From a virus: 35,155 nt of DNA. The first letter of the stretch is position 1, and the number at the start of each line of letters is the position of its first letter. Under the pieces are notes generated by a model. That model saw only the letters and a list, made by a program, of their open reading frames with translations. It was not told where the DNA came from and did not search any database. Positions 6,974-22,653 of this stretch are shown in pieces. The translations under genes were made by a program, and so were the position numbers. The stretch covers positions 1-35,155 of IMG/VR virus record IMGVR_UViG_3300046373_000023. The stretch is one strand, 5' to 3'.

Positions 6974-8311
6974 TTAATCCCATACTGGCATAGTTTTTAG
7001 TTCAAAAATAAATCGCATTAACAGCGAGTCGAACCAGTCGGGCGAACGGCCTGTGCGCTTCTTAAGTTCTTTCTTGCTTTCGAGTTTTATCTTGCCCTCA
7101 TCGTCTGTAGGCTCTCTGCATATCTGCTCTAAGTCCGCCATTATTTGCTTCTTGAAAGTTAAATCGGCAATAAAGATAAGGCCTTTTTCTAAATATTCTT
7201 TTAGCATAAAGGCACATTCGGTCTTTAAGTTCTTGAACTGCTTGTCTTTCAGCGGTAAGGCGTTATTGATAAAAGGCTTTGCGGCTTCAAGTTTGCTAAG
7301 GCTGTTCGCCGTAAACTTCCTCAGTCCGTCCGCGTCGTAGGTTATGTTTGAGTATGGGACTTGGTGCTCTTCGGCTATCTCTTTGAGCCTTGTGCCTATC
7401 GCCGTTTCGTCTATCTTGTCAATCCCGTAGGTCTTAATAACCCGGAAGCCGTGCCAGACGAAGAGCGTAAAGATATCAGCCCCCATGTAGGCAATATCCG
7501 CCGTTATATATTTCTGCCCCTGAGCCTTAACGAAAGAGTTCGTGAAGAGGTTACAGATGTTGTCATAGTCGTACATGCTGTACGGGTTATCGTCGTATTC
7601 CCAGTCGCCGTAAACTAATCGCTTAATCGACTTTTCGTCGTTCTTAAGGGCGCGCATAAGGTCGCGGATATAGTTTTTAGGCAACATTTTGTTGTCCGTC
7701 GGCAAAGCCTGAACGAACTTTCGATACTCAGGTGATCGGTTTTCTTTCTTGGCAAGGTAATAGTCCTCATAGACGAAGTTCTTTGAGGGGTTTAGGGTTA
7801 CAAGTAGCTTGCCTGGGAGGTTGTAAAAGTCATTCTTCCAACGGCCTATAGTCGCTTGTAACATCGCTTTAGCTTTTGGGCTTATCTCCCCTGCTTCCTC
7901 AATCCATCCTCTCGTCATTTGGATAGAGCCGAAGCGTTCGAAATCCGGGTCAGTTGGTAAGTAAGCGGCTTCTAGCAAAAAGACCTTAGAGCCGTTGTAG
8001 AGCGTGTAGTAGTTATCTTGGCCGTTGAAGCTATAATAGCGTTCGTCTAGCCCCCAATCGCGCAGCACCTCTTCGATAGTCGGCTGGGTGTATTTACGCA
8101 AATCGTTTAGCTTCTTACGGGCAATAAAGTAATGCGTCTCAGGGTATATCAGCGCATCGCCGAAAATCAAAGAAGCCCCGAGGTAGGACTTACCTGAGCC
8201 TTTCGAACCGCCGTAGCCGATGTCAGAAACCTCAGGGTCTAGCCAGTACTTAGCGACTTCGAGCTGCTTGTCGTTGCCTCGGGTGTTAAAGCATATCGTC
8301 GTTTGGCTCAT
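6974..8311 (-). CDS. terL: Terminase large subunit
   Basis: The 445-residue ATPase-nuclease that drives DNA into the prohead. The Walker A motif is GGSKGSGKS at residues 34-42 and the Walker B-like stretch is WIEEAGEI near residues 137-144. A C-terminal RNase H-like nuclease domain has acidic residues in TADIAYMGAD (about 271-280), YDADG and SPDWFDSLLMRF near the end. The length is usual for the family. It overlaps the small subunit gene by 26 nt, the classic terminase pair. A regulatory hairpin element follows its stop. Confidence 0.95.
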   Translation of the reverse strand: MSQTTICFNTRGNDKQLEVAKYWLDPEVSDIGYGGSKGSGKSYLGASLIFGDALIYPETHYFIARKKLNDLRKYTQPTIEEVLRDWGLDERYYSFNGQDNYYTLYNGSKVFLLEAAYLPTDPDFERFGSIQMTRGWIEEAGEISPKAKAMLQATIGRWKNDFYNLPGKLLVTLNPSKNFVYEDYYLAKKENRSPEYRKFVQALPTDNKMLPKNYIRDLMRALKNDEKSIKRLVYGDWEYDDNPYSMYDYDNICNLFTNSFVKAQGQKYITADIAYMGADIFTLFVWHGFRVIKTYGIDKIDETAIGTRLKEIAEEHQVPYSNITYDADGLRKFTANSLSKLEAAKPFINNALPLKDKQFKNLKTECAFMLKEYLEKGLIFIADLTFKKQIMADLEQICREPTDDEGKIKLESKKELKKRTGRSPDWFDSLLMRFIFELKTMPVWD

Positions 8312-8759
8312 CGGTTTTAGTTACTTCGTTTTGGATTACCATCCCAACAATAGCGGGAACGGCTAAGGCTTTATTGCCGCTGGTTACATCGAGCTTATCG
8401 CCATACTTATCGGGACGCTCTTTGGCTAATCGCCACTTGATTGTATCGATCAAAAGGCGTCTATGCCCCAGCATATCGCCCGTAACGATTTTAACCCCGC
8501 TAGGGCTATCCTCGACGGTCTGCCCCTCCATAGGCGTTTCGGCTATTTGGATTAAGCGGTCGAACAGCGCAGCGGCGGCGATTTCTTTCGCGCGCACGTA
8601 TCTTTCCGATTTGCTTTTGTCTTCGTCGCACCACGCATAAAAGGCGGTACGGCTGGGCATACCCTCCATGTCGAGAACCTGCCCTAATGGCTTACCATTT
8701 TGCAGGTTCTCGATAACTTTTTTAAAAAGTATTTCTCGTTGTGCGGGTGTGTACTTCAT
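8286..8759 (-). CDS. terS: Terminase small subunit
   Basis: A 157-residue DNA-recognition partner of the large terminase. The N-terminal 60 residues look helix-turn-helix-like (LGQVLDMEGMPSRTAFYAWC), followed by a helical region (YVRAKEIAAAALFDRLIQIA) and the IKWRLAKERPDKYGDK signature of Sf6-type small terminases. It is the first gene of the first late operon, 21 nt downstream of a consensus Bacteroidetes promoter and next to a GTAAACAA palindrome. It should bind the packaging site and regulate the motor. Confidence 0.9.
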   Translation of the reverse strand: MKYTPAQREILFKKVIENLQNGKPLGQVLDMEGMPSRTAFYAWCDEDKSKSERYVRAKEIAAAALFDRLIQIAETPMEGQTVEDSPSGVKIVTGDMLGHRRLLIDTIKWRLAKERPDKYGDKLDVTSGNKALAVPAIVGMVIQNEVTKTDEPNDDML

Positions 8760-8779
8760 AGCCTTTTAGAATTATGCTT

Positions 8780-8812
8780 CAAAGATACAAGGATTAGAGC
8801 CTAAAAAGCAAA
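8780..8812 (-). promoter_or_regulatory. Late promoter (Bacteroidetes -33/-7 type)
   Basis: On the minus strand TTTG (8812-8809) is followed after 21 nt by TATCTTTG (8787-8780), matching the TTTG/TAnnTTTG consensus of Bacteroidetes housekeeping promoters. The predicted start site near 8773 leaves a leader of about 14 nt before the small terminase ATG. It would drive terminase through tape measure. Confidence 0.75.
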
Positions 8813-8831
8813 TAGAAAGCTTAAAAATTCG

Positions 8832-8849
8832 GTAAACAAGCTTGTTTAC
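8832..8849. promoter_or_regulatory. 18-bp perfect palindrome upstream of the late promoter
   Basis: GTAAACAAGCTTGTTTAC is its own reverse complement. Its centre lies about 67 bp upstream of the predicted late start site, where activators commonly bind. It consists of two GTAAACAA half-sites, the same unit that recurs through both intergenic islands. A further half-site follows at 8854-8861. Confidence 0.7.
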
Positions 8850-8853
8850 GCTA

Positions 8854-9198
8854 TTGTTTACGCTGCGAAGTACCGCCGTTATTGACTTTTAGCCTTAGAA
8901 TAACTCAAAAGTAAACAATAAACAATAACTATCACTCTTTCAACATATATAATATAATATACGCGTTTTATGTATGTATTATATATGTATTATACTATAT
9001 ATTTATTATATTTAATATTTTCTATAGTTTATTGTTTATATTGTTTACCATAGCTTAAAGCCCAGTAAACTGTGGGCATTAACGGTAAACAACTTATTGT
9101 TTACATTGTTTATTCTTGTTTACAATCTGCCCGAAATGCCTCAAAAACGTAAACAATGGTAAACGAATGTAAAATTTATTGTTTACGTTTTACGTACG
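8854..9198. other. Intergenic island A: GTAAACAA iterons and AT-rich block, candidate origin or operator region
   Basis: This non-coding stretch is free of genes. Counting from the palindrome at 8832, the gap holds 12 exact GTAAAC/GTTTAC hexamers at 8832, 8844, 8856, 8911, 9043, 9065, 9085, 9099, 9118, 9149, 9159 and 9181. Ten of these extend to GTAAACAA, and several form inverted pairs (9085/9097; 9148/9178). An AT-only stretch (about 8941-9040) could unwind easily and includes a 53-nt block, 8987-9039, 46/53 identical to 22476-22528. A small GC hairpin (9060-9077) follows. Iterons beside an AT-rich unwinding element are typical of replication origins. They could equally be operators. Confidence 0.6.
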
Positions 9199-9228
9199 AA
9201 AAAACCCGCCTTAAAGTAAGACGGGGTT
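9199..9228 (-). terminator. Rho-independent terminator of the early operon
   Basis: On the minus strand AACCCCGTCTT pairs with AAGGCGGGTT (10 bp with one bulged C, 5-nt loop) followed by a run of six T. It begins 4 nt after the stop of the last early gene and so ends the early operon before island A. Confidence 0.8.
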
Positions 9229-9232
9229 CACA

Positions 9233-10620: not shown

Positions 10621-10651
10621 AATCTGTATTTCTTTAGTTGTTATCTGTGTA

Positions 10652-10681
10652 CAAATATACAACTGTTTTTAATATAAACAA
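10652..10681 (-). promoter_or_regulatory. Second early promoter, twin of the one at 22278
   Basis: On the minus strand TTG (10681-10679), 19 nt, TATATTTG (10659-10652). The flanks match the early promoter almost base for base: AAAAACAGTTGTATATTTG and then CAGATAACAAC occur in both, with 3 or 4 nt between. GTTGT and ACAAC form inverted arms around the -7 element and start site. It would drive the chain of tiny genes from 10620 to 9233. Confidence 0.75.
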
Positions 10682-10699
10682 GCATTTTAGTAAAAAATA

Positions 10700-12085
10700 T
10701 TAAAAACTTTTTGACTTTTTATGTAAAACCCCGTACTTCTTAAGCTTAGCGCGTACTGCATCCATTAAAATATCCTGCGTACTGGCTTTACGCTCTAGAG
10801 CGAGCTTAACCGTTTCGTCTTCCGTGCCCTGCGCTATAAGATGCCCGATGACTACAGGGTACTTGCGCCCCTGTCTGTGCAGCCTCTTATTGAATTGCTG
10901 GTACAACTCTAGCGACCAGTTAAGGGAAAACCATAGCGCCATCGTGTGCCCCTCCTGTAAGTTAAGCCCGTGCGAGGCACTATCGGGGTGCGCTAACATT
11001 ACCTGTATCTTTCCAGCGTTCCAGTCCTTAATATGCTGTTGGGTTTCCAGCTTAACGGGCTTGTACTTCTTAAGCCTCTCTAGTAGTCGGCTTAACTCGT
11101 GCTTGTAGCTGTACGCTATGAATACAGGCTTACCGTTCGCCGCTTCGATGAACTCCTCGCAAGCGTCCAGCTTACAGTCGTGTACCTCGTGGACGTTTCG
11201 CTCTTCGTCATACACCGCACCGCCGGCAAACTGTAGGAGTTTGTTCGATAAGCCCGCCGCGTTCATCGCGCTAATATCGTCCGCCTCTGCAAGCTCTAAC
11301 ACTTTCTCCCGTTCGAACTCCTCATACTTACGCTTTATCGCAGGAGGCAGTATCACGTTGATAAACGTATCGATACGCTCAGGCAGCTCTAAGTAGTCGG
11401 CGGATTTAAGGCTCATACATATATCTTTAATCCTACTATGTATGCGGCCGTCCGCCCCGGCGCTAATGTCATAGCCGAAACCCGAATACTTTTTGCTAAA
11501 GTAGTCACGGCGGTAAGCCGTTATAGTTTTACCTAAACGCTCTCCGCGATCCAGTAGCCAAATTTGCGGCCACAGGTCAATCAGCCCATTAGGCGCAGGT
11601 GTACCGGTTAGCAGGACAACGCGCTTAAAGCAGGGTTGCACCGCCTTAAGGGCTTTAAACCTAATCGACGCGTGGTTCTTAAACGAACTGCTCTCATCGA
11701 TTACGAGCATATCCCACGGCAGAAACGAGCCGCCGTAATGCCCCACAAGCCAAGCGATGTTGTCCCGGCTGATAATGTGTATCGAGGCTTTAACCTTAAG
11801 AGCCGTTACCCGTTGCTTCTCGTTGCCGATAATCTTAGATATAGTAAGGTTGCGCAAGTGCGGCCACTTCTCAATCTCGTCCGACCAAACAACCTCAGCG
11901 ACTCGTTTAGGGGCAATGATTAAAACGCCGTCTATTTCGAAATCCATATTCATTAAGCGGTCTATCGCCGTTAAGGTGCTCAGTGTCTTGCCTGTGCCCA
12001 TTTCAGCGAAGACTCCCGCGTGCGTATGGTCTTCTATAAACTCAACCGTTCGGGACTGATAGTTATGCAGGGGTAGGTGTTTCAT
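10700..12085 (-). CDS. SNF2-family DNA helicase/translocase
   Basis: A 461-residue superfamily 2 ATPase. Motif I is AEMGTGKT (Lys33), motif Ia LIIAPKRVAEVVW, motif II DESS in place of DEAH (about residues 128-131), motif III LTGTPAPN. C-terminal helicase motifs are HPDSASHGLNLQEG and QQFNKRLHRQGRK. Phage members of this group accompany replication modules and are thought to remodel or unwind DNA or branched intermediates. It starts 1 nt after the methyltransferase stop. The gene ends just before the twin promoter for the small early genes. Confidence 0.9.
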   Translation of the reverse strand: MKHLPLHNYQSRTVEFIEDHTHAGVFAEMGTGKTLSTLTAIDRLMNMDFEIDGVLIIAPKRVAEVVWSDEIEKWPHLRNLTISKIIGNEKQRVTALKVKASIHIISRDNIAWLVGHYGGSFLPWDMLVIDESSSFKNHASIRFKALKAVQPCFKRVVLLTGTPAPNGLIDLWPQIWLLDRGERLGKTITAYRRDYFSKKYSGFGYDISAGADGRIHSRIKDICMSLKSADYLELPERIDTFINVILPPAIKRKYEEFEREKVLELAEADDISAMNAAGLSNKLLQFAGGAVYDEERNVHEVHDCKLDACEEFIEAANGKPVFIAYSYKHELSRLLERLKKYKPVKLETQQHIKDWNAGKIQVMLAHPDSASHGLNLQEGHTMALWFSLNWSLELYQQFNKRLHRQGRKYPVVIGHLIAQGTEDETVKLALERKASTQDILMDAVRAKLKKYGVLHKKSKSF

Positions 12086-13561: not shown

Positions 13562-15967
13562 CTATTTTTTACGTTGATAAAATTTTTGTTTGCCATACGC
13601 CCCAAAATTGGCAGTCGTTGGCTTGTACCCCCATTCGGGGAAGGACTTCATAATGTCGTTAATATCCCGTGTTAGGTATCGGCTCATGTCCTCTTTGTTC
13701 TTACCCAAACACTCACACCATATCTCAGCCATACACACACGGTCACGTTTAGTGCCTTTGTCGTCGTAGGCCTCGGGGTCGCTGAGGTACATGCGCCTCT
13801 CGTCGATGCCTCTCGTCGTCCAGTCTTTAGGGAGTTGCCTGTCTAGGAAGAACTCTATTAAGCCTCTGCGCTCATCTGTCTCGCTGTGGCTAGACTGCTC
13901 GTAGCGTGCGATGCTCTCCGCCTCTGCACTTAAGTACAAAGGTTCGCCCGCCTTATAAAGCGTTAAGGCCTCCGCCCATATTTGGTCTACGTCCTTGTCG
14001 AGCTCTCGCCAAACATCCTTAACGGCGTCCTCTTTGACTACGTCGATAGGCATAAAGCGACGGTTACCGCTTGGGTCTGTGAATAGGTCTCGCTTGTTTG
14101 ATGTCCCTATAAAGATATTTTGTCTCGGGAAGTCCTCAGGACAACGCCCGTAAGCTGGTCTGAACGTATCGACTTGCTTAGAGACGTAAAGCTTAACCGC
14201 CTCAGCGTCCGCTTTTCTAAACCCGCTCATCTCTGCAATCTCTATAATCCAAGCCCCCTGCAATTGCTCGAACGCCTCTTTGCCGTGTACGGTTGTGAAG
14301 CTGTCAGAGTACCAACTCTTACCGAGCTTATTAATAAACGTTGATTTGTTCGTACCTTGTGGACCTATAAGCGTAAGCACTGAGTCAAACTTAACGCCCG
14401 GATTAAAAACTCTCGCCACTGCGGCGACTAGGCTCTTGCGTATCGCCTCACGGGTATAAATGTTGTCAACCGCTCCGAAGTAATCAATTAGTAAATAGTC
14501 AAGGCGTTCGCTGCCGTCCCACGTTAAGCCGTTGAGGTAATCTTTAATCGGGTGGAAACTATGCTTCTCGAACTCTAAGGCGAGGGCATCGTCAATCTTT
14601 TGCACGCCCGTAATCCCGTAGATTGTTTCGATATAGTTTCTAACTCCCGAGTAGTCTACGTTCTTAATAGGCTCGGGCTTCTTAATGCTTCGCCACGGTA
14701 AAGTGCGAAATACATATCTTTTATTGTCGAATACATTTTGTTTGAAGCACTCTTTAATGCGGGCGTCGTTCTTGAATATCAAAGAAACGTTTGCCGCACT
14801 AGATAGGTAGTTGCCTTTGCTATCCGCTTCTAGGTCGGTCATCCAATCGATGTCGTCTGCCTCACCCTCTATGGCTTCTATCTCTTCCTCGAACTCGTCG
14901 TCTAGTATCTCGGCAAAGTCATACCTAACGCTGGCCTTTGACTCCTCAGCTAAAAGCCTCTTAACATCTTTATCTTTGCGGGCGAACTCCTCCATAGCCG
15001 TGAAGCTCTTAGGCTTTGCCCCTTGCATTTGATTCTCGTTGTCGAGGTGTCCGTATAAGTGTAGACGCACAAGGTCGAAAGCGTTAGAAGTCTTTCCGCT
15101 GCAGGGATCCGTCCCGTGGTGACTATACGCAAAAGTATCTTCGTAAACGATAAGGCCTGCCGCCGTTGAGCCCTGCGTGTAAGTGAAGCGGTCGTCTTTG
15201 TCGGTCGGTATGTATTGCTCAGATAGGAACTTCTCTATTACTTCTGTGATTGAAAAGGTACGGCAAAACGCGCCAACAATCCCGGACTTCTCGCGCGGGT
15301 CTGCTTGCTTTTTGGCGTTAGCCCCCAGCTCTCTGAGCATTTGCCCCGATTTAGGCCAAAGGCTTGTATCTGTCCAGTCTATATAGCTGTCAAGTATATC
15401 GTCAGCACATAGCCAAGGGCCATCTTGCACCTCCATATAATAATCTACGTCTTTCGGCGTTGAGGGCCAAAACATAAGCCTATTAGTCTCAAAGGTGGTA
15501 TTATCGAAGACCTCAACGTCCATAGTTCCAGCAACTGCTCGGGCTATAGCCACGTACTCGTCGGGCGTAACCTCCCTATCGAGAGGCATTAATAGGCGGT
15601 AACGCGGGTCGGTCTTGCAGTGCTTATGCGTACCGTGAATGATCGCTGCGTTTTCGAACTGCAGGCAAAAGTCGCCCCAAAAGTCCAAATGCGCAAAATC
15701 AATATCGAGCGTTAAGAGTTGACGGCTTACCACATTCTTAGGGCTTCGCTTTCCGTTTCTTAGGTACCCACCGACGTAACCGCCCTGGTCTTTATATTTA
15801 AGTTGTTCGGCTTTGCTGCTTGCTATGAACTCTTTGTAAGTTTCAGGCGTTACGGTGTTCTCGCTGATACGCTGAACGAACGCCGACCAAGTAAACGTTT
15901 TATTTTTCCATTTCGAGCTCTGCGCCGAGTGGCCTAATGCGATGTTAAGTTTTCCGTCGTGGTTCAT
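13562..15967 (-). CDS. Primase-helicase: primase-like N-terminus and VirE-type helicase C-terminus
   Basis: An 801-residue protein using ATG at 15967, which overlaps the upstream methyltransferase stop as ATGA; a TTG at 16006 is the in-frame alternative. The N-terminal 260 residues contain primase-polymerase-like features (LLTLDIDF, then THKHC and YRLLMPLDR). Residues 520-720 form a VirE (virulence-associated E) superfamily 3-type ATPase with Walker A GPQGTNKST near 532-540, Walker B-like WIIEIAEM, and GTSNKRDLFTDPSGNRRF. It probably primes and unwinds DNA for the family A polymerase of the same operon. Confidence 0.88.
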   Translation of the reverse strand: MNHDGKLNIALGHSAQSSKWKNKTFTWSAFVQRISENTVTPETYKEFIASSKAEQLKYKDQGGYVGGYLRNGKRSPKNVVSRQLLTLDIDFAHLDFWGDFCLQFENAAIIHGTHKHCKTDPRYRLLMPLDREVTPDEYVAIARAVAGTMDVEVFDNTTFETNRLMFWPSTPKDVDYYMEVQDGPWLCADDILDSYIDWTDTSLWPKSGQMLRELGANAKKQADPREKSGIVGAFCRTFSITEVIEKFLSEQYIPTDKDDRFTYTQGSTAAGLIVYEDTFAYSHHGTDPCSGKTSNAFDLVRLHLYGHLDNENQMQGAKPKSFTAMEEFARKDKDVKRLLAEESKASVRYDFAEILDDEFEEEIEAIEGEADDIDWMTDLEADSKGNYLSSAANVSLIFKNDARIKECFKQNVFDNKRYVFRTLPWRSIKKPEPIKNVDYSGVRNYIETIYGITGVQKIDDALALEFEKHSFHPIKDYLNGLTWDGSERLDYLLIDYFGAVDNIYTREAIRKSLVAAVARVFNPGVKFDSVLTLIGPQGTNKSTFINKLGKSWYSDSFTTVHGKEAFEQLQGAWIIEIAEMSGFRKADAEAVKLYVSKQVDTFRPAYGRCPEDFPRQNIFIGTSNKRDLFTDPSGNRRFMPIDVVKEDAVKDVWRELDKDVDQIWAEALTLYKAGEPLYLSAEAESIARYEQSSHSETDERRGLIEFFLDRQLPKDWTTRGIDERRMYLSDPEAYDDKGTKRDRVCMAEIWCECLGKNKEDMSRYLTRDINDIMKSFPEWGYKPTTANFGAYGKQKFYQRKK

Positions 15968-16725
15968 AATAAGTCTAAGTTTAATCGCTCTTCTATTATT
16001 TTGCAATATTCTCCGCTCGTTTCAGACGCAATCCATTTGCGCTTATTTTTTATACTCATTTTTGCGGTTGTTCCGCTTCCTGCAAAACAATCATACACTA
16101 TATCACCTTTATTGCTCCAACTTAGTATGTGGTCCTCCGCTAATTTCTCAGGAAATATCGCAGGGTGCTGACTTGCTATTTTATCATTGGCGCCACCACC
16201 TGCAAAATATACCCATACATTACGCTTCAATCTTGTTTCGTCTTTTGAGGAATACCCCTCATCCACGCTGTTGTCTCTGTTTCGGCCAAACGCTTTATTT
16301 TTTCTATTGTCGGTATATTCCCGTGGCTCCCTTAGCCCATTAAATGTGTTCGGTTTCCCTTTGCTGAAAATAAACATAAACTCAAAGTTTTGTTCATACC
16401 TGTTATGCGTCAGTGGCGGGGTGCTTTTTTGATATATCATTGTGTCGTGTAAGTTAAATCCGCATTCTTTTGCAAACAAGGCTTGTTTAAAACTTGTACC
16501 TGTTTCGCTCCCCTCAATCGTTGCGTCACCAACCACCCACACCAATACTCCACCAATTTTAGTTACTCTATATAGTTCTCTTATTACATTTTGCCAATCT
16601 AGTATAAAGCCGTTGTATGCCCTAAGATTGTCATAAGGCGGAGAGGTTACAGTTAGGTTAACAAAGTTGTCGGGCATTTTAGCCATTGTTTCAAGGCAAT
16701 TTTCATTGTATATTTTATTGAGCAT
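15964..16725 (-). CDS. DNA methyltransferase, N4-cytosine/N6-adenine type
   Basis: A 253-residue amino-methyltransferase of the beta (permuted) class. The catalytic motif TSPPY is at residues 27-31 and the SAM-binding motif DCFAGSGTT is near 216-224, C-terminal to the catalytic motif. The TSPPY form is more usual in N4-cytosine enzymes, but N6-adenine cannot be excluded. By eye it is more AT-rich than neighbouring replication genes, suggesting later acquisition. It starts 2 nt after the polymerase stop and overlaps the primase start by 4 nt. No restriction partner is seen. Confidence 0.88.
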   Translation of the reverse strand: MLNKIYNENCLETMAKMPDNFVNLTVTSPPYDNLRAYNGFILDWQNVIRELYRVTKIGGVLVWVVGDATIEGSETGTSFKQALFAKECGFNLHDTMIYQKSTPPLTHNRYEQNFEFMFIFSKGKPNTFNGLREPREYTDNRKNKAFGRNRDNSVDEGYSSKDETRLKRNVWVYFAGGGANDKIASQHPAIFPEKLAEDHILSWSNKGDIVYDCFAGSGTTAKMSIKNKRKWIASETSGEYCKIIEERLNLDLL

Positions 16726-16727
16726 AA

Positions 16728-18701
16728 TTAATCTTTTTTATAGTAGTTAGTAATAAACCCCTCGGCGGGTGTGCCTAGCCCTTTCGCCCAAGGCACGGAC
16801 TCACCTAAAATCCTGCACATCTCGCCGATAACATAATCGGTCGACTGGTTAGGTATATCGGCGACCACCTCATCGTGTACGTGCATAACGATGTCGAAGC
16901 CCGCAGCGTCTAATCGGCGCATACCGTCTGCGAGTAAATCTCGCGCAATGGCTTGTATTATATTCTCTGAGAACTTACCGCCCCATGTATCGATACGAAC
17001 CCACTGCCCAGTCTTTTGATGCTTACCCATATACGTTACACAATCGCCACCCCATTTGTTCTTACCGATAGCAGGCCTGTTATAGCAAAGCTTACGCCCT
17101 GACGGTAGTTGAATTGTTAGGCTATTATGCTCGTATCTAAACACGATACCTTTAAGTTTTGAGGTTATGGGCTTTCTTCGGATCTTAAGTGCGCTAATCG
17201 CACAGGCTTCGAACTCATACCACATCTGTACAATCTTAGGCGAGGCTTTACGCCAACGCTCTACGATGTTCTTCATCTCTTGCTCACTAAGCCCCATCGC
17301 CTCACCGCCCATCGTTTTAAGTGCCCCGACGCTTCCACCGAAGCCGAGGGCTAACTCTGCGATTTTTCCCTTGTCTCGGTACTCAGAGCCTTTGCCGATT
17401 GACTCGATAGGGATATTAAACATCATAGCTGCCGAAGCTTCGTATATCTTACCGTCACCTGCAAACACGTCTAGCCTCCACTGCTCGCCTGCGAGCCATG
17501 CGGTTATGCGTCCCTCAATTGCTGAGTAATCGGCTACGGCTAACACATTGCCTGAGGACGGGATTAGAGCCGTACGGATAAGCTCCGATAGCACTTTCGA
17601 TATACTATTAAAAGTCATTGTTAAACTCTCGTAATCTCCCGCCTTAACCATATTTCGCGCCTCATCTAAAAGCTTCATTTTGTTACGTGGTAAGTTTTGA
17701 AGCTGTATGGCTCGACCAGCCCACCTCCCCGTTCTAAACGCCCCATAAAAATACGTCAATCCGTGAGCTATTCCCGTTGATAGTGCGTATTTAATCATAG
17801 CGTCGAACTTTTTATTTGAAGTCTTTGAGCCTTGCTGTCTAAGTTTTAAAACCTCTACCGCTAACCCTGTTTTATGCTCTTTAATTAATGATACTACGGT
17901 TTCTTTTTGAAGATTTTGTATATCTTTTTTCAAATAAGTACTTAGCCATTTTTGCAGCTGTACAGGGCTATTCGGATTTACGAGTCCAGTTAGATTCTTA
18001 AGTCGCATGATTACGTCGTCCTTAAATACTTTATTTATATCTATGGCATTTTGTGCCATTTCGACGTCTATGTTAACGCCTCTGTCGTTTATCTTTTGGT
18101 CTAAGAAGTAATTAAGGCGTTCGGTTTCGGGAATCTCAAAGCCGCTAAGCGCGTCCAGTATCCCCATTTCAGTCCTAACGTCCTGCGCGCAGTACTGCTT
18201 ATAGGCTTCCCACTTCTCAGGGTTATGCTTCGGCAAGTTACGAAGTCTTCCGCCGTTGGTCTTAGTGGGCTTAACGGGACAAGAGAAATAACGGATTAAG
18301 GCCTTACCCTCTGCGGCTTTTAGTTGCTCTATCCCTAACGCTTTACTCGCACCGTCTAAGCTCATAGGCAGTCCGCAATAGCCCGCCTTTACGGCTGAGC
18401 AGTGCCAACGCTCTACGGAAATGTCGTAGCCGATAGCCTTAAAGGCATTGCGCTCGAAGTTAGCATTATGCGCGTGCAGCTCTACGGTCTCGTCTAGGAT
18501 ATCTGCCATAAACTTTTTCGGAAGCTTAGCCCCCTGCGCTAGGTCGACTACTACAACCTTGCCCTTAAACCCGTTAACTTCATAGCTGTACGCTAAAATA
18601 AGTATTTCAAAGTCTAGGCTCTCAAAGTATGCGTAAGACCCGCATTTAGATATATCAACGCTCGAGTAAGTCTCGACGTCAAGGTGTAGTTTGACAGCCA
18701 T
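16728..18701 (-). CDS. Family A DNA polymerase with 3'-5' exonuclease
   Basis: A 657-residue replicative polymerase with no 5'-3' exonuclease domain. Proofreading motifs are LDVETYSS (Asp8, Glu10), HNANFERNAF and QDVRTE. Polymerase motifs are A VADYSAIEGR, B RDKGKIAELALGFGG and C VMHVHDEVV. In motif B a Phe stands where E. coli Pol I has Tyr766. The phage type is usual beside DUF2815 and VirE proteins. The gene starts just after the 343-nt structured non-coding stretch, which may influence its expression. Confidence 0.95.
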   Translation of the reverse strand: MAVKLHLDVETYSSVDISKCGSYAYFESLDFEILILAYSYEVNGFKGKVVVVDLAQGAKLPKKFMADILDETVELHAHNANFERNAFKAIGYDISVERWHCSAVKAGYCGLPMSLDGASKALGIEQLKAAEGKALIRYFSCPVKPTKTNGGRLRNLPKHNPEKWEAYKQYCAQDVRTEMGILDALSGFEIPETERLNYFLDQKINDRGVNIDVEMAQNAIDINKVFKDDVIMRLKNLTGLVNPNSPVQLQKWLSTYLKKDIQNLQKETVVSLIKEHKTGLAVEVLKLRQQGSKTSNKKFDAMIKYALSTGIAHGLTYFYGAFRTGRWAGRAIQLQNLPRNKMKLLDEARNMVKAGDYESLTMTFNSISKVLSELIRTALIPSSGNVLAVADYSAIEGRITAWLAGEQWRLDVFAGDGKIYEASAAMMFNIPIESIGKGSEYRDKGKIAELALGFGGSVGALKTMGGEAMGLSEQEMKNIVERWRKASPKIVQMWYEFEACAISALKIRRKPITSKLKGIVFRYEHNSLTIQLPSGRKLCYNRPAIGKNKWGGDCVTYMGKHQKTGQWVRIDTWGGKFSENIIQAIARDLLADGMRRLDAAGFDIVMHVHDEVVADIPNQSTDYVIGEMCRILGESVPWAKGLGTPAEGFITNYYKKD

Positions 18702-18732
18702 ATAATTAATAGTTTGAAAGGTTGTAATTTGT

Positions 18733-18787
18733 GAGGCGACGGGACTCGAACCCGTGGAACTTGCGAACCGCTTAACTCTGCCACCTC
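18733..18787 (-). other. tRNA-like element 1 (T-arm plus acceptor stem)
   Basis: On the minus strand GAGGTG (18787-18782) pairs with CGCCTC (18738-18733), one G-T wobble, and encloses 26 nt plus a perfect T-arm ACGGGTTCGAGTCCCGT with the canonical GTTCGAGTCCC. At 55 nt it is too short for a standard tRNA; no normal D-arm or 5-bp anticodon stem could be drawn. It ends in ACAA, without encoded CCA. It could be a degenerate tRNA or a regulatory mimic. Confidence 0.45.
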
Positions 18788-18971
18788 TGTGGCTCTTTGC
18801 GCGAGAGCCTTAACGGGTCTAAGATTAACTATTTTAAACCAAAATATTTGCTATTGAGCGCGCTCCTACGTGGGCGGCGCGCCCGTATGCCCCACCAAGA
18901 CCGCTAACAGTGGGCCGCCATTACGCGGTGCGTTCTTAGCCGTTTTGGAATTTTAGGCCTTTCGGCTTTGT

Positions 18972-19030
18972 GGACGGGCGGGACTCCAACCCGCTGCCCC
19001 CTCGGAGTGATAGCTGCTCAACTTCCGTCC
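18972..19030 (-). other. tRNA-like element 2 (T-arm plus acceptor stem)
   Basis: On the minus strand GGACGG (19030-19025) pairs perfectly with CCGTCC (18977-18972), enclosing 30 nt and a perfect T-arm stem GCGGG/CCCGC with loop TTGGAGT (C56 of the usual TTCGANT replaced by G). It is 59 nt long and, like element 1, is followed by ACAA and lacks a recognisable anticodon arm. The shared design suggests a related pair. Confidence 0.4.
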
Positions 19031-19044
19031 TACCATCTTTTTTT

Positions 19045-19611
19045 TTAATCTAGTTCGTCGAGGTCTTCTTCCTCCTCGTCGATTTCATCGAAAACGTCCT
19101 CAGCTCTTACACGTGCCGCGCCTAACGGCTCACCGTCCGCTACTTTCTGAATAGCTTCTAGGCTTGCAGTAATACCTTTGGACTCATCCATCCAGTAATA
19201 ATAGAACTCGATAGCCACATTAGCAACAACGCCGCTGTAGATTTCGCCCTCGTCGGTTATCGGATTTCTGCGTCTGTCAACGATAACAGGCTTAACGTGT
19301 TTAGATACATTAATGCAATATCTCCCCTCGTACTCTTCGCCGTCCTTTTCCGCATCCCCGTCGATAAAAGTATTGTCGATTCCTTTTTTAGGCATCTTAC
19401 CTGCGTACTTTTCCGTAACCATTTTATCCTCGACAAGCTTAATCGCCTTTTTAATTTTTGCTACAGACTCCTTATCTGTTTTGTCAATTAAAAGTAGGCA
19501 TTTATACTTCGGTTTCGATTTACCTTTCGGGTCGATATAAGGCTCGAAAACATTTACGTAACTTAATACGGCTCTTACTGTAACTCTTGTTGCATTTTTT
19601 TGATCTGCCAT
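19045..19611 (-). CDS. Single-stranded DNA-binding-like protein (DUF2815)
   Basis: A 188-residue protein with the DUF2815 pattern: TVRAVLSYVNVFEPYIDPKG, then YKCLLLIDKTDKESVAKIKK, aromatic strands (IEFYYYWMD) and a strongly acidic tail (DEIDEEEEDLDELD) like that of SSB proteins. In phages this family sits beside DUF2800, family A polymerase and VirE proteins. It is inferred to bind single-stranded DNA and recruit replication partners through its tail. It lies 2 nt after the upstream gene and just before the structured non-coding interval. Confidence 0.8.
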   Translation of the reverse strand: MADQKNATRVTVRAVLSYVNVFEPYIDPKGKSKPKYKCLLLIDKTDKESVAKIKKAIKLVEDKMVTEKYAGKMPKKGIDNTFIDGDAEKDGEEYEGRYCINVSKHVKPVIVDRRRNPITDEGEIYSGVVANVAIEFYYYWMDESKGITASLEAIQKVADGEPLGAARVRAEDVFDEIDEEEEDLDELD

Positions 19612-21401: not shown

Positions 21402-21839
21402 CTATTTCAATTTAGATAAGAAGTCGAAGTAAGCGGCGTAGTGCTTCTCGTCTAAGTTGCTGATTCCCGTAGCCCCAAGCTTAACAAGTTCGGCCTTAAT
21501 GGTTGCGCGGTGCTTATCGACTTTCTTAGCCTGTAACTCTCTAAGGTCGTCAGCGTCTATGCTTTCGTCCTCGTCCTTTCCGAGTACTCCGTCTTCTAGG
21601 TCGTCGTCGAAATCTTCATCTTCTTCGGGTTCAGGCTCAGCGGTCGGTTTAGCTTTAGCTCTTGACGGTCTAGGCTTCGGCGCGGGCTTCTCTGCTGCTA
21701 CCACCTCTTCGGCGTCAACAACCTTAACGGCTTCTAGTTTTTTACCACTTACGGCCGCTACGGCGATACGGGATAGGAACTCGTTTACGATTTCGATGTT
21801 GTTCACATCAACGTGCAATTCTAATTTAATTGTGCTCAT
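21402..21839 (-). CDS. Hypothetical acidic early protein (145 aa)
   Basis: A 145-residue protein with a beta-type N-terminus (STIKLELHVDVNNIEIV) and a low-complexity linker of Pro, Ala, Lys then a long Asp/Glu run (about residues 50-95). A helical C-terminus (RATIKAELVKLGATGISNL) resembles a small protein-interaction domain. It overlaps the regulator gene by 4 nt (ATGA) and precedes the DUF2800 gene. Function unknown; the flexible acidic middle suggests a partner-binding protein. Confidence 0.6.
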   Translation of the reverse strand: MSTIKLELHVDVNNIEIVNEFLSRIAVAAVSGKKLEAVKVVDAEEVVAAEKPAPKPRPSRAKAKPTAEPEPEEDEDFDDDLEDGVLGKDEDESIDADDLRELQAKKVDKHRATIKAELVKLGATGISNLDEKHYAAYFDFLSKLK

Positions 21840-22258
21840 TTTTGATTATGTTTAGAAATTAATAAATCCGTTATTGAAGAAAGATATTCTGATATTTCGA
21901 CTAGCCCGTTATGCTGAACTTCGTCTATAATCACAACGCCGTTACGGTAAACAACCGTCACCATTGTCTCGGTGTTAAGCTCTGCGACGTAGTCATAAGT
22001 TTTAAATTGTAAAGTGCCTCTAGGTGCGTTAGCAGGCTTGCCCATTTCCCACTCGGCGTCATCGAATAACAAGCCTATCGGCACCTCTGTTATCTCGGAC
22101 AATTTGGATATTTGGCTAGAATCTAAAAAGCCTCTGCCCGATTCGACGTAGTTAAGCGCGTTATAGGCATTTTTATGATTTGGGAAAAGTTCGACTGCAA
22201 GCTCTGAGGCTTTTAATCCTGTCAGTTTTCTTATTTTTTTAAGGTCTAGGGTCTTCAT
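21836..22258 (-). CDS. Helix-turn-helix regulator, first gene of the early operon
   Basis: A 140-residue protein with an N-terminal Xre/Cro-type fold. The sequence KIRKLTGLKASELAVELF, then NALNYVESGRGFLDSSQISK and LSEITEVPIGLLFD, gives the usual five-helix pattern (residues 8-65). A separate C-terminal half is beta-rich and ends in helices. It is the only DNA-binding regulator recognised and begins 20 nt from the -7 element, so it may regulate its own operon, the twin promoter and the GTAAACAA sites. No lysogeny partner or integrase is present. Confidence 0.75.
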   Translation of the reverse strand: MKTLDLKKIRKLTGLKASELAVELFPNHKNAYNALNYVESGRGFLDSSQISKLSEITEVPIGLLFDDAEWEMGKPANAPRGTLQFKTYDYVAELNTETMVTVVYRNGVVIIDEVQHNGLVEISEYLSSITDLLISKHNQK

Positions 22259-22277
22259 ATCTTGTTGTTATCTGAGG

Positions 22278-22307
22278 CAAATATACAACTGTTTTTTATA
22301 TATGCAA
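22278..22307 (-). promoter_or_regulatory. Early promoter (Bacteroidetes -33/-7 type)
   Basis: On the minus strand TTG (22307-22305), 19 nt, TATATTTG (22285-22278). The predicted start lies near 22271, leaving a leader of about 13 nt. It shares AAAACAGTTGTATATTTG and CAGATAACAAC with the promoter at 10652-10681, pointing to a common regulator. Confidence 0.78.
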
Positions 22308-22339
22308 TAGCTGAAGTGAAAAATATTAAAAAAAATTTA

Positions 22340-22619
22340 ACGTAAACAATGCTAAAAAGGTTAACACGTTGATTTATAGCGTTTTAGGCTTTAATTGTAA
22401 ATAATAAACGAAATAAACAAGTTTATTCTATAGAGTACTATACGTGTTTATGCGTTTTTGTATATAATTATATAAGTATTATACTATATACTTATTATAT
22501 TTTAAATTTTAGGTACTTTATTGTTTATTTAGGATATTAGGTGGCTTAAGCCTTTAAGCATAGGGCTTAAGCTGTCGTACAATACCCCGTTTACTAAGAA
22601 TATTTTTGTTTACGCACGT
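22340..22619. other. Intergenic island B: counterpart of island A
   Basis: A gene-free stretch with the same order of elements as island A: GTAAACAA (22342-22349), inverted AATAAAC-AA-GTTTATT (22412-22427), an AT-rich ladder including the 53-nt block at 22476-22528, a GC hairpin (GCTTAAGCC 22544-22552 / GGCTTAAGC 22564-22572), then GTTTAC at 22589 and TTGTTTAC at 22606. It has fewer exact hexamers (3) than A (12) but several ATAAAC variants. It lies between the lysis terminator and the early promoter. Candidate origin or operator. Confidence 0.6.
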
Positions 22620-22646
22620 AAAAAAAACCCTCGGTTAAGAGGGTTT
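22620..22646 (-). terminator. Rho-independent terminator after the lysis cassette
   Basis: On the minus strand AAACCCTC, loop TTAACC, GAGGGTTT, then continued T residues (eight T counting the stem end). A perfect 8-bp stem, 7 nt beyond the last small ORF. It ends the second late operon and insulates the early promoter. Confidence 0.85.
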
Positions 22647-22653
22647 ATGTTTT

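Follow-up and report, generated by a model that had tools for sequence, protein, structure and literature searches.

Two intergenic islands in a viral genome are most probably a pair of putative replication origins of the PriRep type, which would share one VapE initiator, would have been duplicated from a single origin at the 3' end of vapE and appear to evolve in concert, a reading to which we assign a probability of roughly 0.7. Binding, melting, initiation and a division of labour between the two sites are the functions that we infer here from the sequence. Pairing of origins is known from the Bacillus phage SPP1, and single origins of such a build are known as well; a conserved pair changing in step is unusual.

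The analyzed stretch of DNA, termed the window, is a virus record of 35,155 bp with the major genes all on the minus strand, and the GC skew was uninformative because all genes are co-directional. No near-identical sequence was found when phage records were searched with the window. The islands are located in two gaps with a GC content of 26–29%, gap 1 (8760–9232) upstream of the terminase (late) operon and gap 2 (22259–22653) upstream of the replication (early) operon. The first late-operon gene encodes the terminase small subunit (terS; 8286–8759, minus strand; PF20901, E = 2.6e-25). The replication operon encodes an HTH protein, an exonuclease, an SSB, PolA, a methylase, the VapE primase-helicase, a C5 methylase and an SNF2 helicase; its first gene (HTH; 21836–22258, minus strand) appeared XRE-like by eye and its product gave no Pfam hit. 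These flanking genes agree with an early replication operon and a late terminase operon, bearing out the placement of the islands in a preliminary description of this DNA. The islands are about 13 kb apart, bracket the replication genes and are about 4.4 and 6.3 kb away from vapE (13562–16006, minus strand; PF05272, E = 9.7e-78). The PolA and Enc34-type SSB genes adjoining vapE (16728–19611) recall the PolA-SSB putative primase pairs that occur in other mobile elements (PMC10061031).

Island T (8760–9204, minus strand), the putative origin before the terminase operon, contains ten exact copies of the iteron GTAAACAA in a layout that is kept in relatives. Proceeding from the −7 element TATCTTTG of the late promoter (8780–8787, minus strand; pattern only), it comprises an iteron group beside the promoter (8832–8861; sites at 8832+, 8842− and 8854−), the tandem pair GTAAACAATAAACAA on the promoter side of the AT-rich block (8911–8925, plus strand), the block itself (8960–9039), the facing tandem pair TTGTTTATATTGTTTAC on its terminator side (9031–9048, minus strand), an outer iteron group (9085–9186; sites at 9085+, 9097−, 9116−, 9149+ and 9179−) and the terminator of the preceding operon (9205–9225, minus strand). 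Island E (22259–22624, minus strand), the putative origin before the replication operon, aligns to island T and occupies a position that is also filled in relatives. It comprises the −7 element TATATTTG of the replication-operon promoter (22278–22285, minus strand; pattern only), a promoter-proximal GTAAACAA (22342–22349, plus strand), an AT-rich block as putative unwinding element (22463–22528) and a terminator-proximal GTAAACAA (22606–22613, minus strand; TTGTTTAC on the plus strand), and is followed by the terminator of the preceding operon (22625–22646, minus strand). Both −7 elements conform to the Bacteroidota-type promoter pattern TAnnTTTG. Exact/near iteron sites amounted to 10/14 in gap 1 and 2/6 in gap 2, so that gap 1 is the full version and gap 2 a partly degenerate one; island E of the window is devoid of a clean tandem iteron pair, which we counted against the two-origin reading.

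The order of elements was the same in each gap, with promoter, GTAAACAA sites, AT block, GC hairpin, GTTTAC sites and terminator of the preceding operon, and the promoter-to-block distance was 207 in gap 1 and 198 in gap 2. Within the AT-rich blocks a stretch of 53 nt (22476–22528 and 8987–9039) is identical at 46 of 53 positions without gaps, compared with 39 for the best ungapped 53-mer from 300 blockwise dinucleotide shuffles. Local alignment of the two gaps scored 98, whereas dinucleotide shuffles averaged 28 and reached at most 50, and blockwise shuffles at most 72 (n = 1000 each). BLAST independently aligned the islands with 85% identity over 80 nt (E = 1.8e-19). The claims of the preliminary description on the colinear second copy 13 kb away, the order of elements, the two distances and the 53-nt block therefore all hold, and the similarity exceeds that of shuffled sequence, the comparison that it had named as a possible refutation. 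That the likeness stems from A/T-rich composition alone has a negligible probability despite the low GC content of both gaps, and we rejected it, as none of the 1000 dinucleotide shuffles, global or blockwise, reached the observed score and the iteron counts far exceeded Markov nulls: GTAAACAA occurs 10 times in gap 1 and twice in gap 2, with null means of 0.09 and 0.06 (p = 0.0005 for gap 2). Counting both orientations, 12 of the 13 sites in the window fall inside the two gaps; the remaining exact site is located at 21947 within the HTH gene, ~310 bp from the gene start. Inside the replication operon the early promoter region (GTTATCTG...CAAATATACAACTGTTTTT) recurs as a third copy, of which 70 nt (10637–10706) are 81% identical to 22264–22332; this copy contains one TAAACAA and no iteron array.

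For comparison we collected 34 loci with a related VapE gene from viral contigs, which are linear pieces and may be incomplete. Chance hits were numerous in a loose pattern scan of such contigs, and we kept loci with clusters only. The clade motif, mostly GTAAACAA, forms two clusters, island E ahead of the HTH gene and island T ahead of terS, and in whole-record pattern searches the majority of the longer records had such a pair, with roughly 13 to 20 kb between its members. Both islands share a layout with tight spacings, in which the AT-rich block separates a tandem iteron pair from an inverted pair that faces it. Read in the direction of transcription, it begins with the terminator of the preceding operon and iterons including an inverted pair with a 3–4 nt loop, continues with ~35 nt containing a weak hairpin, the tandem iteron pair (9-bp step) and the AT-rich block, and ends with the facing tandem pair, more iterons and the promoter. 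Relative to the tandem pair, the sites were positioned at about −76, −57, −45, 0, +9, +121 to +155 and +177 to +201 across phages whose VapE proteins differ by up to about one third. In three loci the left arm of the late island (inverted pair, spacer, tandem pair) is duplicated (L017:14426–14900, L029:15270–15500 and L025:19127–19430), with a terminator-like hairpin between the arms in L017 and L029.

The preliminary description would have been contradicted by related phages lacking the pairing. Most clade members possess it; locus L208 has the late island only, Elizabethkingia phage TCUEAP1 a single island before the early operon, and several relatives at 50–58% VapE identity yielded no clear iteron cluster in an exact scan, the relaxed scan for facing pairs returning mostly noise. 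The group without clusters comprises most of loci L298–L315 and Bacteroides phage BF486P3 (L157), though both closer and more distant relatives have them. Such single or missing clusters weigh against the two-origin reading, as does the promoter position of both islands, which leaves some probability for a regulatory role. In TCUEAP1 (L158:4586–4880) a long inverted repeat includes the iteron pairs (TTGAGAC) as well as pairs of CTTTACA and the margins of the AT-rich block.

The two islands change together. In four clade genomes both islands had switched to the same new iteron, which amounts to three separate switches, since two of the genomes are close relatives (L297 and L303, both islands with GTAAACCAT). 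The other switches are to GTAAACAG in L012, for which the early island was read in L192, and to TAAACAAAG in L296, for which the late island is found in L355 before a TerS-like ORF. Among 15 genomes selected because both islands could be placed, the E–T similarity averaged 126 within a genome versus 58 across genomes; the own-genome partner ranked first in 11 of the 15, and none of 5000 permutations reached the own-genome mean. For L015, L021, L024, L025 and L029 the own E–T pair was even closer than any cross-genome E–E or T–T match. These data point to copies that evolve in concert, either by gene conversion or by repeated duplication. The term "two ancient copies" used previously thus holds in so far as the pairing is old in the clade; the copies themselves are more alike within a genome and their iterons change together. 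Taken together, pairing and joint switching make a single initiator for both islands the most likely arrangement.

A different picture was obtained for more distant VapE relatives from genome and viral contigs, in which we searched de novo for repeats of any heptamer that included a tandem pair. At 40–50% identity, 66 of 104 relatives contained a significant cluster, whereas none of 60 Markov copies of the loci reached the cluster threshold. In 60 of the 66 it started between positions −80 and +300 relative to the 3' end of vapE, with 38 different heptamers, for example GTCAACA in Clostridioides phage phiCDKH02, GTATCCA in Enterococcus phage EFP1, GTGACAA in L031 and GTAAACG in Bacteroides phage Bacuni_F1. 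This distribution indicates that the element goes with VapE and that the iteron varies by VapE lineage. Two clusters were seen in none of these 66 relatives, including 35 whose visible flanks extend at least 9 kb ahead of VapE and 8 kb beyond it; the pair thus most likely arose within the clade of the window. In a few distant relatives the single cluster lies ~10 kb ahead of vapE or 6.6 kb beyond it (L248:1099–1474, L324:1224–1461, L346:10478–10768), hinting that the origin moved more than once.

VapE is also a suitable initiator by homology. Its residues 376–744 match PriRep1 (PDB ID: 7pds) by sequence with E = 3.8e-71, and an AlphaFold2 model (20 sequences, mean pLDDT 81) gave PriRep1 with dsDNA as top PDB match (E = 3e-38), extending the relationship across helicase and C-terminus. 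Modelled alone, the C-terminal 115 residues adopt a predicted winged helix (pLDDT 83; ~residues 756–814, encoded by 13565–13741, minus strand) that matches the PriRep1 C-terminus with a Z score of 12.3, the next match being at 6.6. In a partial-correlation analysis for iteron-reading residues, the winged-helix segment 771–800 reached 0.26 compared with a permutation maximum of 0.21. Residues 671–700 (0.30) and 461–490 (0.25) scored high as well, and as these peaks fall outside the winged helix we take the covariation, which is suggestive of this domain as the iteron reader, as supportive only.

Based on the SaPI and Sfi21-type origins, we propose a model in which the C-terminal winged helix would attach VapE copies to the GTAAACAA iterons in two groups that flank the AT-rich block and face each other. 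Bound in this way, the two groups would melt the block, whereupon VapE would load as helicase rings and start replication. One initiator would read both origins, ~13 kb apart on either side of the replication genes, and the pair would have descended from a single origin directly 3' of vapE, the position retained in the distant relatives. A division of labour may exist, resembling the theta-to-concatemer switch proposed for SPP1. More tentatively, and at somewhat less than even odds, a clade of Bacteroidota phages duplicated a PriRep-type origin so that a copy stands at either end of its replication module, and concerted evolution keeps the two alike, with one initiator firing one of them for theta replication and using the terS-side copy for the switch to packageable concatemers. 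If so, any change of iteron would have to pass through the initiator and both origins jointly.

An unlikely but serious alternative is that VapE binds both islands and only one of them starts replication, the other serving as a roadblock, a switch or a regulatory site. The copies are indeed often unequal, with island E degenerate in the window and island T degenerate in L006 and L008, and in SPP1 a fork colliding with oriR-bound gp38 has been proposed to set off the change from theta to concatemer replication (PMC6316719). However, in many relatives (L004, L010, L297, L303 and L029) both islands retain an AT block flanked by iterons on either side, which is beyond the need of a mere binding block.

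A far less probable reading takes the islands as operators, bound by a regulator of phage transcription that would set early and late expression; the HTH protein of the first early gene would be one candidate. Both islands adjoin promoters, one of them before the HTH gene itself, and HTH homologues were found in 34 of the 45 clade loci with the exonuclease in view. None of the 104 distant VapE relatives has such a homologue, so the HTH protein cannot be the general reader; in these phages the element is usually located 3' of vapE and no promoter is needed. In addition, a long AT block between facing iteron groups would be superfluous for an operator, and the annotated Sfi21 origin exhibits this very layout. 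We give still less weight to a packaging site (pac or cos) in island T with its relic in island E: island T does lie directly before terS, but island E and the single islands of distant relatives are found away from terminase genes, the latter by vapE. Of the options left by the preliminary description, one protein controlling both islands or two origins, the comparative evidence thus supports both together, with VapE rather than the HTH protein as the most likely reader.

On the two-origin reading, it would become possible to recognize origins by their sequence in a large phage and prophage family of Bacteroidota, Bacillota and others, and the ~40 different iterons beside their likely initiators would form a dataset on how winged helices read DNA. 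A clade with two matched putative origins would further provide an unrelated system for the question raised by SPP1, namely what a second origin is for and how the switch to concatemers is triggered.

In the SaPIbov1 origin the iterons are arranged in two sets on either side of an AT-rich region, and the window likewise has multiple short iterons flanking such a region, clearly in island T and in degenerate form in island E. SaPI Rep proteins (PriRep1, SaPI5 Rep) and SCCmec Cch2 are self-loading initiator helicases that recognize their origins through a C-terminal DNA-binding domain, SaPI Rep reading short iterons just downstream of its own gene (PMC7581432). The window VapE is homologous to PriRep1 and has a predicted C-terminal winged helix, and the islands share the short iterons of the SaPI and SCCmec origins. 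SaPI and SCCmec elements have one origin, placed directly 3' of the helicase gene like the clusters of 60 of the 66 distant relatives, whereas the window has two copies at operon boundaries away from the gene. A location 3' of the helicase gene is typical of the kind rather than required for function, and the window hence represents a variant. Our literature search found no published origin for VapE-type or Bacteroidota phages. Croceibacter phage P2559Y, a named isolate, belongs to the same clade (VapE 59%) and likewise has both islands, one with GTAAACA preceding the HTH gene and another such island preceding the late genes at the end of its record, which carries no annotation of origins.

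As a positive control we used Streptococcus phage Sfi21, in whose record a 302-bp non-coding origin is annotated directly 3' of a D5-type primase-helicase gene, a region described as an independent origin (PMC6356513). Its sequence runs from GGTTACTcAGTAACC through a hairpin spacer to TTAGTTACTTAGTTAC, an AT-rich block and GTAACTAAGTAACTAA, that is, inverted half-sites, hairpin spacer, tandem pair, AT-rich block and facing tandem pair as in the islands of the window, and it is above all for this equal layout that we call the islands origins. Unlike the window, Sfi21 has one copy with the iteron TTAGTTAC, an 8-bp step and an only distantly related initiator. The pairing has its counterpart in SPP1, where oriL and oriR are located ~13 kb apart, contain similar repeats and an AT-rich unwinding element and are served by one phage initiator (PMC6316719). 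The window matches this in having two like-built copies ~13 kb apart and, by inference, one initiator. SPP1 in contrast relies on the initiator gp38, the loader gp39 and the DnaB-type helicase gp40, with oriL inside gene 38, whereas the window encodes VapE, PolA, SSB and SNF2. As far as known, the two systems are not homologous, and the likeness to SPP1 is one of arrangement, not of family.
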